Shown: positions 1,710 through 12,494 of the stretch, in pieces
Layout: each line of letters opens with the position of its first letter
Position numbering within the stretch: the first letter of the stretch is position 1
Notes under the pieces: model-generated
Told to the model about the DNA's origin: nothing
Seen by the model: the letters and a program-made list of their open reading frames with translations, nothing else
Databases searched by the model: none
Source: Gemmatimonadota bacterium
GTDB lineage: Bacteria; GCA-2686955
Reading direction: 5' to 3'
Length of the DNA stretch: 16,005 bases
Assembly (NCBI GenBank): GCA_002686955.1
Contig: NYZA01000165.1
Location: forward strand, 1-16,005
Translations under genes and position numbers: made by a program

Positions 1710-2536
1710 GGTCCCTCCTCGGCCCCGGGAAGGCCGTACCCCTCCTCGGCGATCAGAGTCCGTCCTTCGTTCCCGGCTAGAAAACGCAGATAGTCGCGAG
1801 CCGCGCTCTTTTGTGCTCCAACTTCCAGCAGCACCCCATTCTGCCGGATCGGGGAGTAGAGCTCGAAGGGGACCGGCCAAACCCGCTTCGAGCCCACGTC
1901 ACGCACCATCGAAGCGGGGACGAATGCGAAATCGGCGCTGCCGCTGCTCACGAATTGAAAGGCTTGGGCCACGTTCTCCCCGCGAACGATCTTCGAGGAG
2001 AGCGCCTCGGCGAGACCGAAGTGTCGGATCGTTTCGATGGCCGCTCGCCCGTAGGGGGCCGCTTCCGGATTGGCGATCGCCAGCCGCTGGAATCGGCCTT
2101 CACGCAGCGCGGTCGGTCCATCGATGAGATCGATCCCTTTCGCCGAGTAGAGCACCAGCGATCCGAGCGCATAGGTAAAGGCGGTTCCGCGCACGGCGAA
2201 GCCATGCTCCACCAACTGCGCGGGTCTCTCCTCGTCCGCCGCCAGAAAGAGCTCGAAGGGGGCTCCGTTGACGATCTGCGCGTAGAGCTTGCCGGTCGAT
2301 CCCGAGCTGGCGACAAGCGAGTGCCCCGTCTTCGCCTCGAAGCCGCGCGCCAGCCGCTCCTGTGTGCTTCGAAAGTTCGCCGCCACCGCGACGTGCACCG
2401 TGTCGGCCGCCGCATCGCCGATCACCGCTCCCCCAGCGAGACAGAGCAGGAGGATCGGCACGGCGCGGAGCAGGTGTGGGTGGTGCGGGGGCATGGGAGC
2501 TCGATGACGTAGATGGCGAGCGCGGAAGAATAGCAT
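1706..2536 (-). CDS. modA: molybdate ABC transporter periplasmic substrate-binding protein ModA
   Basis: Periplasmic protein that captures molybdate and delivers it to ModBC. The N-terminus has a basic region, a hydrophobic core ([16 protein letters not shown]) and a likely signal-peptidase site near DAAADT. The mature protein starts [20 protein letters not shown] and contains [20 protein letters not shown] and [11 protein letters not shown], the classic ModA ligand-pocket blocks. The ATG at 2536 overlaps the dnaE2 stop by one base (TGATG), giving 276 residues. An in-frame ATG at 2494 gives a more normal-length signal peptide and may be the true start, but neither has a strong ribosome-binding site. 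The odd point is context: it follows an SOS polymerase gene without a gap. Substrate could be molybdate, tungstate or both. Confidence 0.93.
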
Positions 2537-5500
2537 CAATGGAAATCCCGGCTACCCCCCGAGACCCCCTCGCCCGAAAGCTCCGGCTCCCAGAGGCGGT
2601 CGGCGATCAGATGAACGACACCATGCTCCGATTGGATCTTTCCGGCGACCGCGAGCAGCGACACCGTCTTCACGATCACGGCGTGCGCCTTGAAAACCTG
2701 CTTCCAGATCACCACATTCACGAAACCTGTCTCATCCTCTAGCGTCATGAAAGTGACGCCGGATGCGGTTCCGGGGCGTTGGCGACAGATCACCACGCCG
2801 GCAACGCGAATTCGGCGCCCGTGGGGCATGCGGAAGACCTCCTCCGCGGTGGGAAATCCCTGAGCACGCAGCTCCGGTCTGAGCGGCCCGAGCGGGTGGC
2901 CGCGCACGCTCAGCCGGGTCGCGTGGTAGTCCCAGGTGATCGTCTCGAGCGGGTCGAGCGAGCGGAAGGCAGGGGTCGACTCGTTCCCGGTCAGCAGTAA
3001 GGGCGCGCGACAGGCGTGCACCAGGCCCCGCACATGCCATAGTGCTCGGCGGCGATCCGAACCGAAAGCGCCTGCTTCGGCCAATAGAGTGAAGGCGCGG
3101 TCGTTCAGTCTCGGAGGGGCGCTGCAGCGCCGAACGAAGTCCTCCAATCCCGCGAACGGTGCTTCTTCTCGAAGCGTTTCGATCCGCTCGCCGTCGGCGA
3201 CCCGCATCCCTTTGATGTAGCGAAACCCGAGGCGAACCGACCGAGCCCCATCTTCCTCTTCCATAGTGCAATCCCAGCGACTCTTCCGCACATCGACCCC
3301 CCACACCCGAACCCCGTGCCTGCGGGCATCCTCCACGAGCGTGGCGGGAGAGTAGAAGCCCATCGGTTGCGCATTGAGAATGGAGCAGAGGAACTCGGCC
3401 GGGTAGTGACATCGAAGCCAGGCCGAGGCGTAGCTGATCAGAGCGAAGCTGGCGGCATGGCTTTCCGGAAAACCGTACTCACCGAAGCCGCAGATCTGCT
3501 TGAACACCCGTTCGGCGAACTCCTTCTCGATCCCTTTCGCCAACATCCGTTGAATCAGCCGGTCCCGATGATGTTCCATCCGCCCCGTCTTGCGCCAGGC
3601 CGCCATGTCGCGCCGGAGCTGATCCGCCTCACCCGGTGTGTAGTCGGCCGCGACCACCGCCAGCTTCATCACTTGCTCCTGAAAGAGCGGCACCCCCAGG
3701 GTCTTTTCGAGCACGGGGCGCAGGCTCTCGTGCGGATACTCCACCGCCTCTTCGCCGTTGCGCCGCCGTAAATATGGATGCACCATCCCACCCGTGATCG
3801 GCCCGGGGCGCACGATGCTCACTTCGATCACCAGATCGTAATAGTGTCGCGGCCGCAGCCGGGGCAGCATCGCCATCTGCGCCCGGCTCTCGATCTGAAA
3901 CACCCCGACCGTATCGCCGGCGCAGATCATGTCGTAGGTGGCGGAATCATCGGGCGGAATGGTGGCCATCGAGAGCTCGATCCCTCGCTCCCGCAACAGC
4001 TGGAAACAGAGATCGATCTGCGTGAGCGCGCCGAGACCCAACAGATCGACCTTGAAGAGCCCGAGCGCCTCGACATCCTCCTTGTCCCACTGAATGACGG
4101 TTCGCTTCTCCATCGTGGCGTTTTCGATCGGGACCAGATCGTGCACCGGCTCGTGCCCCAGCAGAAAGCCCCCGGGGTGGATCGAAAGATGGCGCGGAAA
4201 ATCGAGGATCTCATCTGTCAGCACCGCGAGGTGGCGATGGGCCCGGTGATGTGGATCGAGGCCGGCCCGCAGCAAGAGCTCCGGCGTTACCCGCTCGCTG
4301 TACGAAGCGAGCTTCGCCAGCCGATCGAGCGAGGTCTCGGCGATCCCGAGGGTCTTGCCCACCTCGCGAATGGCGGAGCGGGCGCGGTAACGGATCACAT
4401 TGGCCACCATCGCGGCGTGGTCGCGCCCGTACTTCTCGTAAACGTGCTGGATCACCTCTTCGCGCCGCCCGTTGGCGACATCGAGGTCGATGTCGGGGGG
4501 CTCCGCCCGCTCCTCCGAGAGGAAGCGTTCGAAGAGCAGATTCATCCGCACCGGATCGATCGCCGTGATCTCGAGGCAGTAGCAGACCACCGAATTCGCC
4601 GCCGATCCCCGCCCCTGACAGAGAATTCCCTCCCGCCGGCAGAACTCCACGATCTCCCACATCGTAAGAAAGTAGCCGCCGTAATCGAGCCTCTCGATCA
4701 CCTCGAGCTCCCGCTCGAGCTGCCGCATCACCCGCTCCGGAATGGTGTCGCCATATCGCCCCCGCGCCCCCTGGACCGCCAGCTCCCGCAGCCAGGTCGT
4801 GGTCGTGCGCCCATCGGGCAGACGCTCGGCAGGGTAACGATAACGAATATCGTCCATCGAAAAGGAGCAACGTTCGGCGACCTCTCGGGTGCGCGCGACC
4901 GCATCGGGCAGATCGCTGAACAGGGCCGCGAACGCATGCGGCGACCTCAGCGCATGCTCGCTGTTCGGACGCAATGTCCGCCCCGCGCTCGCCAGAGTGA
5001 CACCGTGCCGAACGCAGGTCAGAACATCGTGTAGCTGCCGCCGAGCCGGAGAGTGATAGAGAACCTCGGTCGCCGCCACCGCCCGAATCCCGTAACGATC
5101 GATCCGCTCCCGCGCGCGCGCCTCGAGATCGGGCTCCTCCGGGCGCTTGTGGCGGCTCACGAGCGCATAGAGCCGGTCGCCGAAAGCGTCGCGCAGATCG
5201 CCCGCGACCGCATCGCATCGTCCCGCATCGTCCTCCGCCAAGAGGCTCCCCTCACCACCCCAGAGCGCGATCAGATCCTCCGCGTGCGCACAGACCTCGC
5301 CCCACGAAACGATCGACTCCCCTTTCAGACACCGGCGCCGCCCCCGAGTGAGCAAGCGACAGAGCCGCGCATACCCTTCTCGATTCCGCGCGAGCAGAAT
5401 GATTCGCGAGCCGTGCTCGGAATCTTTCCCCACCGTCACCTGCGACCCGATCAGGAGCCGAACCCCCAGCTCTCGGGCCTTGACGTGCGCCCGAACCACC

Positions 5501-5640
5501 CCGTGCACCCCGTCGCGATCGGTCAGCGCGAGCGCCCGCAACCCCAGATGATGCGCCTCTTCGACCAGCTCGTCGGGATGGCTCGCCCCTTCCAAGAAGG
5601 AGAAGTTCGATTTGCACCAGAGGGGGCTATAGCGCTGCAT
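2536..5640 (-). CDS. dnaE2: error-prone DNA polymerase III alpha subunit DnaE2 (ImuC)
   Basis: C-family DNA polymerase of 1034 residues that carries out SOS translesion synthesis with ImuA and ImuB. The N-terminal PHP domain (about 1-270) opens with [15 protein letters not shown], typical of DnaE2. The palm carries PPDIDLD with catalytic Asp383 and Asp385, and the third acid, Asp532, is in FKVDLLGLG. Further on are SIHPGGF (about 486-492), the fingers, a helix-hairpin-helix region, and an OB-fold near [19 protein letters not shown]. The C-terminus ends in SRDFH, as most DnaE2 proteins do. Length is normal and no frame break was seen. The ATG at 5640 lies 6 nt after the imuB stop, with GGAG and AAAGG just upstream. 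Its stop overlaps the modA start by one base. Confidence 0.97.
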
Positions 5641-5646
5641 CCTTTC

Positions 5647-7242
5647 TCACTCCACCACCCCGTGGAGATACCAACGTTTGCGGCGCCGATCGCAGTAGAC
5701 CCAGACAATATCGCCCCGGCGAAACTCGGCGAAATGGTACTCGCGGTGAATCAAATTGTGCCACCACGCCCCGGAAAAGATGTACGGACCACTCTTCTTC
5801 ACCACCGGCCCGGCCTCCAGCTCCGCGAGCAGCCACCCGTCGGGCTCGATCCGTGGGCGGGGGGGGAGCGGACGCGGCCGCTGCTCGATCCGCCGAATCA
5901 AAGGGAGCGGCGACGCATCGGCATCGGCGAGATGAGGCAGCGACAGATGCTCCATCGGCTCCCACCCGTATGAAGCCTCCGGCAGATGCCCCGGCCGCAG
6001 CACCGCCCGCACCACCGCATCGTTTCCGAGCTCGGCGCGAACCCGTGCCAGCGCACGATCGCCCGCCTCGATGTCGCGCTTCGGCGCATCGACGAAGAGA
6101 AGAAGCTGCTCCTCGGTCGCCGCGACTCCACCCGCCACCAGCGCGATCCTCTCGACCGCTCCGGCGAGCTCGAGCCGGTCGAGGCACAGATGGACCAGAT
6201 GCAAAAGCTGCGTCGCATCGAGGGTCGGAGCCGCGGGGCGGAGCGACTTATGAAGAAAACGGGCATCCTCGGAAAGGGCGGACGATTGCTCCAGCGTCAG
6301 ATCCAGATCGAGCTGGGCCAGCGCATCGCCCCGGCCGACCAGACGTTCCAGCAAGGGATGGAGCAGACGCGAGAAATGGAAAACGAGTTGGCTCACATCG
6401 GCGACGGGCGGCTCCAAATCGATCCCCGACTCCAGAGGAGCTTCGTAAGCGACACTTTGCAGAGGCAGCGGATCTTCCCCCTGCGCCAGACGATGAAGAC
6501 GCAGCAGCTCGGGACCGAAGCGCTTCCCCAATCCCCCGGCAGGCAGCTCCAAGAGATCGCCGACGCTGTAGGCGCCCAGCTTCTCCAATGCATCGAGGCT
6601 AGCCGGAGAGAGCGAGAGCCGCTCCAGAGGGACCCGCCGCGCCATCGCGGCCTCGCGAGACCGATCGCGGAGGTGGAGCGTGCCGGGCATCGCCGCCCCC
6701 CGCGAGGCGCGCCGCCCCCTCGCTTTCGCCTCCGCTCGGCTCCCGATGCCGCGATCCGCGCTCCCTTGGCGCAGCCCCCGCGCCACGGCGAAAGTCCCAA
6801 AACGGGTCCATCCCACCACCACCAAGGAACAGAACTCCTCGGCTCGCAGCCGAGCCCGCAGCCGATCCCCCCACACCCGCAGATCGGGATGAAGCCGCTC
6901 CAGCCCGCTCGCATCGAGCCAGAACACTCCGGGATCGCCGGGAAAAGGCTCGATCTCGGGAGAGAAAGAGCGCAATTGTGTCGCGACCTCTTCCCGTCCC
7001 CTTTCGATCCGCTCGCTCGAGATCACCCCGGCCCGCAGCTTGGCGCAGATCGAGAGCCCCGCGGCATAGCGCATCTCCCGTCGAATCCCCAACCTGGCGG
7101 CGGCCGCGTTGACCCAGAGGATCTTGCCCTGGGGACGATCGTGCTCCACCACCACCGCCGGATCATCGCGCCATTCGGCATGGTCCCGCAGCAGGAGCTG
7201 GAGGGGGAAGGCCGGCAGATCAACGCAGGCCAGCCGGTCCAC
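5647..7242 (-). CDS. imuB: ImuB, Y-family polymerase-like mutasome hub protein
   Basis: Y-family-like protein of 531 residues that bridges DnaE2, ImuA and the sliding clamp during SOS mutagenesis. The palm begins RLACVDLPAFPLQLLLR, where Asp8 occupies the place of the first Y-family catalytic Asp. The usual catalytic D-E pair is D-A here (Asp110-Ala111 in WLDAS), so catalysis is probably lost, as in characterised ImuB. A helix-hairpin-helix segment (LEKLGAYSVGDLLELPAGGL, about 216-235) and a little-finger region follow. The C-terminus (GPYIFSGAWWHNLIHREYHF and WYLHGVVE) is the conserved ImuB tail. I could not pick out a clear QLPLF-type clamp-binding motif. The GTG start at 7242 overlaps the end of imuA by 23 nt and has a GGAG ribosome-binding site 8 nt upstream. 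Confidence 0.95.
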   Translation of the reverse strand: MDRLACVDLPAFPLQLLLRDHAEWRDDPAVVVEHDRPQGKILWVNAAAARLGIRREMRYAAGLSICAKLRAGVISSERIERGREEVATQLRSFSPEIEPFPGDPGVFWLDASGLERLHPDLRVWGDRLRARLRAEEFCSLVVVGWTRFGTFAVARGLRQGSADRGIGSRAEAKARGRRASRGAAMPGTLHLRDRSREAAMARRVPLERLSLSPASLDALEKLGAYSVGDLLELPAGGLGKRFGPELLRLHRLAQGEDPLPLQSVAYEAPLESGIDLEPPVADVSQLVFHFSRLLHPLLERLVGRGDALAQLDLDLTLEQSSALSEDARFLHKSLRPAAPTLDATQLLHLVHLCLDRLELAGAVERIALVAGGVAATEEQLLLFVDAPKRDIEAGDRALARVRAELGNDAVVRAVLRPGHLPEASYGWEPMEHLSLPHLADADASPLPLIRRIEQRPRPLPPRPRIEPDGWLLAELEAGPVVKKSGPYIFSGAWWHNLIHREYHFAEFRRGDIVWVYCDRRRKRWYLHGVVE

Positions 7243-7879
7243 GGTAGATCTCCAGATCGCTCCATCCCGGAGCGCGGCGTTTGTCTTTCAAAACCTGAAC
7301 CCGACATCGAAAGCGGTCCTCCCCGATCCGTTCCCGTCGCGTCTCGGCCCGCAGCGAAACCAGAGAGCCGATCGACGCCGCATGCGCCCCTTTTTCCGTC
7401 AGACAGAGCAAGGCCGCGCCATGATTTTGCGCCAGCCCCAGCAGACGAGATTGCGCCGCCATCGGCACGCGGGCTTCGGGCCCCAGATCGAGCACCACCA
7501 GGCCGAAGCCCCCGGAGCGCAAGAGGTGGTCGGCCGCGCGGACCGCTCCATGCCCGCCACGCGCGCGCACCACCACCAGCGCCCGCAGATCGACCCCGCT
7601 CTTCGCCGCGTCGGGGGGGTAGAAGGTGCTGGAGCGGGCCGAGATCCAAGCGACACTTTCCCCCTTCGATTGTGCGTCGCGCAGCACCCGAAACGCCAGA
7701 GTCAGCGTGGCGGAAGGACCGAGCGACGAAAGCTCCGCCAGGCGCCCGGCCAGCTCGTCGAAGCCCCAGACCGCTGGAACCTCTTCGGGCCACGCCCCGA
7801 GCCGCATCTGTCGCGGCGAGAGCAGTGGCTTTGGCAGATCGAGATCGCGGATCCGCAGCGGAAAGGAGGCGCCGCTCAT
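7220..7879 (-). CDS. imuA: ImuA, RecA-like mutasome accessory protein
   Basis: RecA/SulA-like protein of 219 residues that works with ImuB and DnaE2 in SOS mutagenesis. A Walker-B-like strand FGLVVLDLG (Asp131) is clear, and a GTASIGSLVS-like RecA-fold strand region (ASIGSLVSLRAETRRERIGE) follows. The segment expected to hold the P-loop (AELSSLGPSATLTLAF, about 48-63) lacks the GK[ST] triplet, so ATP binding is doubtful. The C-terminal block FRCRVQVLKDKRRAPGWSDL matches the family's ending. The ATG at 7879 overlaps the lexA stop as ATGA, with AGGGGAG upstream as ribosome-binding site. The neighbours make the assignment secure even though ImuA proteins diverge strongly. Confidence 0.9.
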   Translation of the reverse strand: MSGASFPLRIRDLDLPKPLLSPRQMRLGAWPEEVPAVWGFDELAGRLAELSSLGPSATLTLAFRVLRDAQSKGESVAWISARSSTFYPPDAAKSGVDLRALVVVRARGGHGAVRAADHLLRSGGFGLVVLDLGPEARVPMAAQSRLLGLAQNHGAALLCLTEKGAHAASIGSLVSLRAETRRERIGEDRFRCRVQVLKDKRRAPGWSDLEIYRGPAGLR

Positions 7880-8658
7880 GACTTCGCGCTCCCCTCGCCC
7901 GGTCCCCTGTGACCGTGATTTCTTGCGTAAGTCGTCGAGGTCTCGTCGTCGCTCGCAAGGCGCGACGACGAGGCGCGGTGGGGCCTGCGTCGAGGAGGAG
8001 CAACGCCGCGAGCGGCAACGGGGACCGGCGAATTGCGTAAGAAATCACGGTCACAGGGGACCAGAAAGCGACGCACTTCGATCACCCTGCCCAGGATTTT
8101 CAGCTCGTCCGGCTCGGGCTCGATCGGCTCGAACTCGGGGTTCTCGGGCCGCAGAATCGCGCGCCCCTCCCGAAAATGCAGGGTTTTCACCGTGGCCTCG
8201 TCGCCCACCAGAGCCACCACCACTTCACCCGCGCGGGCCGTCGCCTGCCGCCGCACGATCACCAGATCGCCGGGCAAAATCCCCACCCCGATCATGCTCC
8301 GCCCCCGCACCCGCAGCGCGAAAAGCTCCTCGGGAGAAAAGGAATGCTGCACCGAGAGATACCCCTCGGGATCCTCGATCGCCTCGCTCAATCCCCCGGC
8401 CTGAACCCGCCCCAAAAGCGGCACCATCGCGCTCCGCCCCCAATCCCCCGGCAGCCGATACCCCCGCGAAAGCCCGGGGCTCTGCAAGAGATGCCCCTCC
8501 CGCACCAACGCGCTCATATGGGCCCGCGCCGACTCCACCGCACGAAACCCGAAGGCCCGCTGCACCTCACGCACCGTCGGAGGATCCCCCCCCAGAATCC
8601 GCCGGCGCATATATTCGAGAATCTTTGCCCGGGTCTCCCCGCGCGGCGTGCGGCCCAT
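7876..8658 (-). CDS. lexA: SOS repressor LexA with an atypical C-terminal extension
   Basis: Transcriptional repressor that self-cleaves when bound to RecA filaments and so releases the SOS genes. The N-terminal winged helix-turn-helix spans about 1-70 (PPTVREVQRAFGF). The cleavage bond is Ala87-Gly88 in GRVQAGG. The catalytic dyad is Ser121 (GRSMIG) and Lys158 (ATVKTL). The normal LexA fold ends near residue 199 (GRVIEVRRFL), but the frame runs on to residue 260. Residues about 200-253 are encoded by a 162-bp inverted-repeat element, and the last residues, GEGSAKS, probably belong to the original end. The ATG at 8658 is set by an AGGAGGAA ribosome-binding site. The frame is open to 8763, but that would place the start upstream of the promoter. 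The stop overlaps imuA as ATGA. Confidence 0.95.
   Translation of the reverse strand: MGRTPRGETRAKILEYMRRRILGGDPPTVREVQRAFGFRAVESARAHMSALVREGHLLQSPGLSRGYRLPGDWGRSAMVPLLGRVQAGGLSEAIEDPEGYLSVQHSFSPEELFALRVRGRSMIGVGILPGDLVIVRRQATARAGEVVVALVGDEATVKTLHFREGRAILRPENPEFEPIEPEPDELKILGRVIEVRRFLVPCDRDFLRNSPVPVAARGVAPPRRRPHRASSSRLASDDETSTTYARNHGHRGPGEGSAKS
7901..8062. repeat. 162-bp inverted-repeat element inserted in frame at the 3' end of lexA
   Basis: Two perfect 24-bp inverted arms, at 7901-7924 and 8039-8062, start with GGTCCCCTGTGACCGTGATT and enclose 114 bp. Inside is a second perfect hairpin with 11-bp arms (7942-7952 and 7962-7972) and a 9-nt loop. Another ggggacc copy lies at 8020-8026. The element is exactly 54 codons long, so lexA stays open through it. 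It encodes no protein of its own that I recognise and looks like a non-autonomous REP- or MITE-like element. No target-site duplication was obvious. Confidence 0.8.
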
Positions 8659-12290: not shown

Positions 12291-12494
12291 GATTGGCATA
12301 AGGGTCCGCGCAAGAATAACTTGTCATTTGGCATCCCATCTGCACCACATCTCCGGCCGATCGGTGAGCTCCGAAATCCTCGAAATAGCCCGACTATTCC
12401 TCCGGTTTCGGAGCTCACCGATCGCCCAGATCAGAAGCACATATGGGCGCCAAAACAGCATTCTATTCTTGTGCGGACCCTTTGTGTGGCGATC
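12291..12494. repeat. long imperfect inverted repeat (about 100 bp per arm)
   Basis: Left arm 12291-12389 and right arm 12393-12494 are imperfect reverse complements. The inner 19 bp (12358-12376 and 12406-12424, CGATCGGTGAGCTCCGAAA) match perfectly. An outer 18-bp block (12301-12318 and 12464-12481, AGGGTCCGCRCAAGAATA) has one mismatch. Blocks between are recognisably similar (TTTGGC, CCCAT). The centre adds AATAG-CCCGA-CTATT. It may be a MITE-like element or two diverged head-to-head copies of a gene start. The flanking stretch 12144-12290 holds nothing I can name. Confidence 0.75.

Follow-up and report, generated by a model that had tools for sequence, protein, structure and literature searches.

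The window analysed here, a 16,005-nucleotide stretch of a Gemmatimonadota genome, contains a lexA-imuA-imuB-dnaE2 gene cassette and two palindromic elements. The lexA gene (7876-8658, minus strand; ATG at 8658, stop codon at 7876-7878) is the lexA2 of the cassette and encodes 260 aa, with Pfam LexA_DNA_bind and Peptidase_S24 matches. Its stop codon overlaps the start (ATGA) of an imuA-like gene with a RecA fold (7220-7879, minus strand; PF00154 RecA match). Further downstream are imuB, a Y-family polymerase-like gene (5647-7242, minus strand; PF00817 IMS), and dnaE2, or imuC, the error-prone DNA polymerase III alpha (2536-5640, minus strand; 1034 aa; PF07733, PF17657, PF02811, and PF14579). 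All three downstream genes are present and intact, and LexA2 is probably the SOS repressor that governs this error-prone polymerase operon. One palindromic element, of family A (7901-8062, unstranded; 162 bp), lies within lexA itself; the other, of family B (12302-12480, unstranded; 179 bp), adjoins an FG-GAP-type gene fragment. Because both flanks of the family A element belong to one conserved operon (lexA on one side, imuA-imuB-dnaE2 on the other), a chimeric assembly join at the repeat is unlikely.

The family A element in lexA is bounded by terminal inverted repeats. An inverted-repeat search recovers arms of 37 nt (7901-7937 and 8026-8062) that are 89% complementary, and the outer 24 nt of each arm (GGTCCCCTGTGACCGTGATTTCTT) pair perfectly. 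As single-stranded DNA, the plus strand folds at -64.7 kcal/mol, compared with -35.8 +/- 3.2 for shuffled sequences (z = -9.1); the minus strand gives z = -8.4, and the RNA of the lexA strand gives z = -7.4. A search of Rfam with the element returned no match. The element is exactly 54 codons long and is free of stop codons throughout the lexA frame: the lexA codons CGC TTT CTG run directly into its GTC CCC, and its final GGA CCG runs into GGC GAG GGG AGC GCG AAG TCA TGA. An open frame of this length is unremarkable alone: any one frame is free of stops in about 32% of composition-matched shuffles, and three of the six frames of the lexA copy are open. The first-pass annotation had described a 162-bp element with perfect 24-bp inverted arms, 54 codons without a stop, and a return to GEGSAKS and the ATGA overlap; the arm search, the fold, and a direct reading of the sequence agree with it on each point.

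At the protein level, the element is encoded as a C-terminal tail that has no counterpart in other LexA proteins. The alignment comprises 26 rows, the window protein and 25 other LexA sequences that are 54-63% identical to it, except for the other LexA of this genome (32%). In all 25, the C-terminus is the VRR-x-L(E) strand plus 0-11 residues, and only in the window protein do 54 extra residues follow, placed exactly after VRRFL and before GEGSAKS. The new tail beyond VRRFL that had been proposed for this LexA is thus an insertion into a form that is uninterrupted in every other LexA aligned. A database search for relatives found no other protein with a comparable LexA tail. Apparent tail matches in two loci (L041 and L067) were rejected as chance continuations beyond a stop codon. 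The remainder of the protein is that of a LexA, with wHTH and S24 domains; both the Ala87-Gly88 cleavage dipeptide and the Ser121/Lys158 dyad have been preserved and do not vary in the alignment. In an AlphaFold2 model the core has pLDDT values mostly above 90 and the tail values of 46-60, without stable structure; the tail is thus predicted to be disordered and to leave the catalytic core intact. The predicted tail, which would be translated as part of LexA2, is arginine-rich (10 R/K versus 5 D/E in 54 residues) and includes the peptides NSPVPVAAR and LASDDETSTTYAR. A second, canonical LexA without a tail is encoded elsewhere in the same genome (contig C90; L125, G000:C90), and its presence may further reduce the cost of altering LexA2.

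The source assembly (4.28 Mb in 270 contigs, 84.5% complete) contains three near-complete copies of family A and several partial ones, and the lexA element is therefore a repeat. Family A ranges in length from 129 to 166 bp, with ends CTGGTCCCCTGTGACCGTGAT... (also given as GGTCCCCTGTGACCGTGAT). One copy (C28:1762-1929; 88% identity over 168 bp) is flanked by the 3' end of a DUF1573 gene on one side and by a zinc-ribbon gene on the other, and looks as if it had been inserted at a stop codon. At this locus (L002, 1502-1670; G000:C28), the DUF1573 TGA stop falls at the first bases of the element and a TAG lies at its far end. The other copy (C4, about 1450-1613; 84% over 99 bp) is internally shortened to 129 bp and lies in the opposite orientation, in frame, inside a HEAT-repeat protein, where it splits a HEAT_2 unit. 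Without its 43-aa insert the protein has a HEAT_2 score of 75.2 bits instead of 54.0, and the match becomes continuous over the junction. In-frame coding insertions therefore account for two of the three near-complete copies (those in lexA and in the HEAT-repeat gene), and the third is at a stop codon. The HEAT-repeat case, in a protein unrelated to LexA, shows that coding insertion has happened more than once. Partial copies are present on contigs C111 and C131. Contigs C153 and C135 have the core of the lexA element in common; these two loci (L006 and L007) represent a third palindrome type, which shares only that core (GCGTTGCTCCTCCTCG ... CTCGTCGTCGCGCCTTGC) with the lexA element, and on C135 the third-type palindrome adjoins a family B copy. 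A match to the arm pattern on C142 was discarded as a single match with no inverted partner, and the reading phase common to the lexA and HEAT-repeat insertions (a VPxxRDxLRx start) is not significant with only two cases.

Family A is a dispersed palindromic repeat that is tolerated as coding sequence; the suggestion in the first-pass annotation that a mobile repeat had been tolerated as protein is borne out by the dispersed copies and by the HEAT-repeat insertion. No copy was found in 59 other genomes, including one other genome of the phylum, or in phages and viral contigs; plasmids yielded one 37-bp match of chance level, in a haloarchaeon. The other genome of the phylum is without this lexA, so no empty-site allele is seen there.

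The family B element in the window is a MITE-like palindrome with the terminal inverted repeat GGGTCCGCGCAAGAATA; the genome holds at least 40 copies of it, at 81-91% identity. A search for the family B terminal repeat GGGTYCGCGCAAGAATA gives 165 sites, versus one for the reversed control pattern. Thirty-four copies could be delimited, in size classes of 40, 87-98, and about 180 bp, and 18 of them are flanked by exact 3-bp duplications, mostly TAA, TTA, AAA, and TCA. Terminal inverted repeats together with 3-bp target duplications point to MITEs moved by a DDE transposase; some IS5-group elements make TNA duplications of this kind. A genome full of such elements further indicates that small mobile palindromes are active now or were so recently. 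Most of the 34 copies appear to be intergenic or fall in GC-rich ORFs that are spurious, and these were not counted as coding insertions. One copy (L153, 1502-1681; G000:C108:14735-14918) is in frame in what seems to be the signal peptide of a lipoprotein, ahead of FG-GAP repeats, where it reads as RTRFAPVL, 61 aa, and SLFALSACSS. Family A is not merely a form of family B, but the family A copy on C28 contains GGGTCCGCGCAAGAA, which resembles a family B end.

These observations, a dispersed palindrome read in frame in lexA and in a HEAT-repeat gene and absent from lexA orthologues, very probably reflect the insertion of a short, non-autonomous mobile element into the last codons of lexA2, yielding a LexA with a disordered 54-residue tail. 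A family A element of 129-166 bp would have entered the final codons of the gene; with a net insert length that is a multiple of three, one stop-free phase would have joined the lexA reading frame, and the product would be LexA plus the tail. The insertion would have persisted because its position is past the final conserved beta-strand of the protease/dimerisation domain and because the imuA start that overlaps the lexA stop is left as it was. The extension appears to be tolerated and is probably near-neutral for LexA function. Transposition is the presumed route by which family A was copied. Several points weigh against the insertion account. No clear target site duplication accompanies family A (none at lexA or C28, and a possible 5-bp GGCGC repeat at C4 only), just three copies are near complete, the one other genome of the phylum offers no empty-site allele, and none of the Y1_Tnp and DDE_Tnp_1 genes of the 84.5% complete assembly has ends matching family A. 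Two DDE_Tnp_1 genes (on C143 and C75) have no family A-matching ends, DDE_Tnp_1 being the sole Pfam DDE family searched.

The element might instead act mainly as RNA, a 160-nt hairpin at the lexA/imuA boundary that modulates mRNA processing or the translational coupling of imuA-imuB-dnaE2, with the tail as a by-product. The RNA hairpin is indeed very stable and ends some 20 nt upstream of where imuA begins, and MITE hairpins elsewhere influence mRNA stability (PMC3733652). Such a hairpin, however, would be unwound by translating ribosomes, the element occurs in no related species in which its structure could be compared, the reading frame has been kept, and the remaining family A copies lie in unrelated contexts; a primarily RNA-level role is unlikely, though the hairpin may affect imuA expression. 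That the tail is instead an adaptive, selected part of LexA (e.g., an extra DNA contact, a degradation signal, or a means of altering autocleavage) is very unlikely. In its favour, the frame stays open, the tail is arginine-rich, and the operon is intact; yet the tail occurs in one genome only, giving no comparative signal, and is predicted to be disordered. The outer arms, moreover, still form a perfect palindrome and so show no sign of protein-level evolution after insertion.

The first-pass annotation had also tentatively linked the ends of the element to Y1 (REP-associated) transposases, and this link finds no support. The assembly contains a single Y1_Tnp gene (on C59), a fragment that appears from its sequence to be IS200/IS605-like and whose flanks carry no palindromes of the lexA-element kind; family B, with its terminal inverted repeats and 3-bp duplications, is unlike IS200 or RAYT insertions. 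REPs measure 20-40 bp and have a GTAG or CGTC foot, the GTAG types being linked to RAYTs, and DNA-repair genes, uvrA and dnaE2 among them, repeatedly carry intragenic REPs (PMC3733652). Family A is like these in being a palindrome in a coding region, and the lexA2-imuAB-dnaE2 setting fits the DNA-repair-gene pattern; it differs in its 162-bp length, in ends (CTGGTCCCC) that lack a GTAG or CGTC foot, and in that no RAYT was found. Despite its palindromic form, the precedent of REPs in repair genes, and the chance that a RAYT is missing from the incomplete assembly, family A is very unlikely to be a REP element that owes its mobility to a Y1 RAYT transposase.

Other known systems also offer likenesses. 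Like the MITEs of DDE-type insertion sequences, the elements described here have terminal inverted repeats, lack a transposase ORF, and occur in many copies, with 3-bp target duplications in family B; unlike them, family A has no demonstrable target duplication, and no parent insertion sequence was found among the DDE_Tnp_1 genes of the incomplete assembly. ERIC and the enterobacterial RU are MITE-like repeats of 103-168 bp that are fused in frame with host ORFs (Delihas 2007, PMC2759123). Family A shares this in-frame arrangement, whereas those are enterobacterial families known from annotated gene loci and involve other host genes. That palindromes can be set in frame in proteins was established for the Rickettsia palindromic elements (RPEs) by Ogata et al. 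(2000, 2002), as cited in PMC10969869. RPEs are likewise palindromes of about 100-150 bp that lie in frame in unrelated protein genes and are retained as coding sequence. Family A has the corresponding features, a palindromic repeat at several genomic places that is read in frame in two protein genes unrelated to each other, but its host belongs to an unrelated phylum and has a larger, GC-rich genome, and its copies are few compared with the dozens in Rickettsia. By these descriptions, as opposed to sequence, family A resembles RPEs in kind only.

As far as the literature searched shows, the sequence family of the lexA element, its lineage, and its host gene are all new, but its kind is already known. 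A broader reading, in which the phylum has an RPE-like system outside Rickettsia with repeated in-frame entry (into lexA2, the HEAT-repeat protein, and the lipoprotein signal peptide), and in which the tail or the hairpin of lexA2 alters how the imuAB-dnaE2 mutasome is controlled and hence the mutation rate, is speculative and on balance quite unlikely. The occurrence in lexA2 raises the simple question of whether the tail changes LexA2, and it agrees with an earlier remark that DNA-repair genes, dnaE2 among them, are repeated sites of intragenic palindromes (PMC3733652). Palindromes that encode protein in frame are best known from Rickettsia; the present case extends them to a barely sampled phylum and a GC-rich genome, where one of them sits in a repressor of the SOS response that probably controls an operon for an error-prone polymerase.
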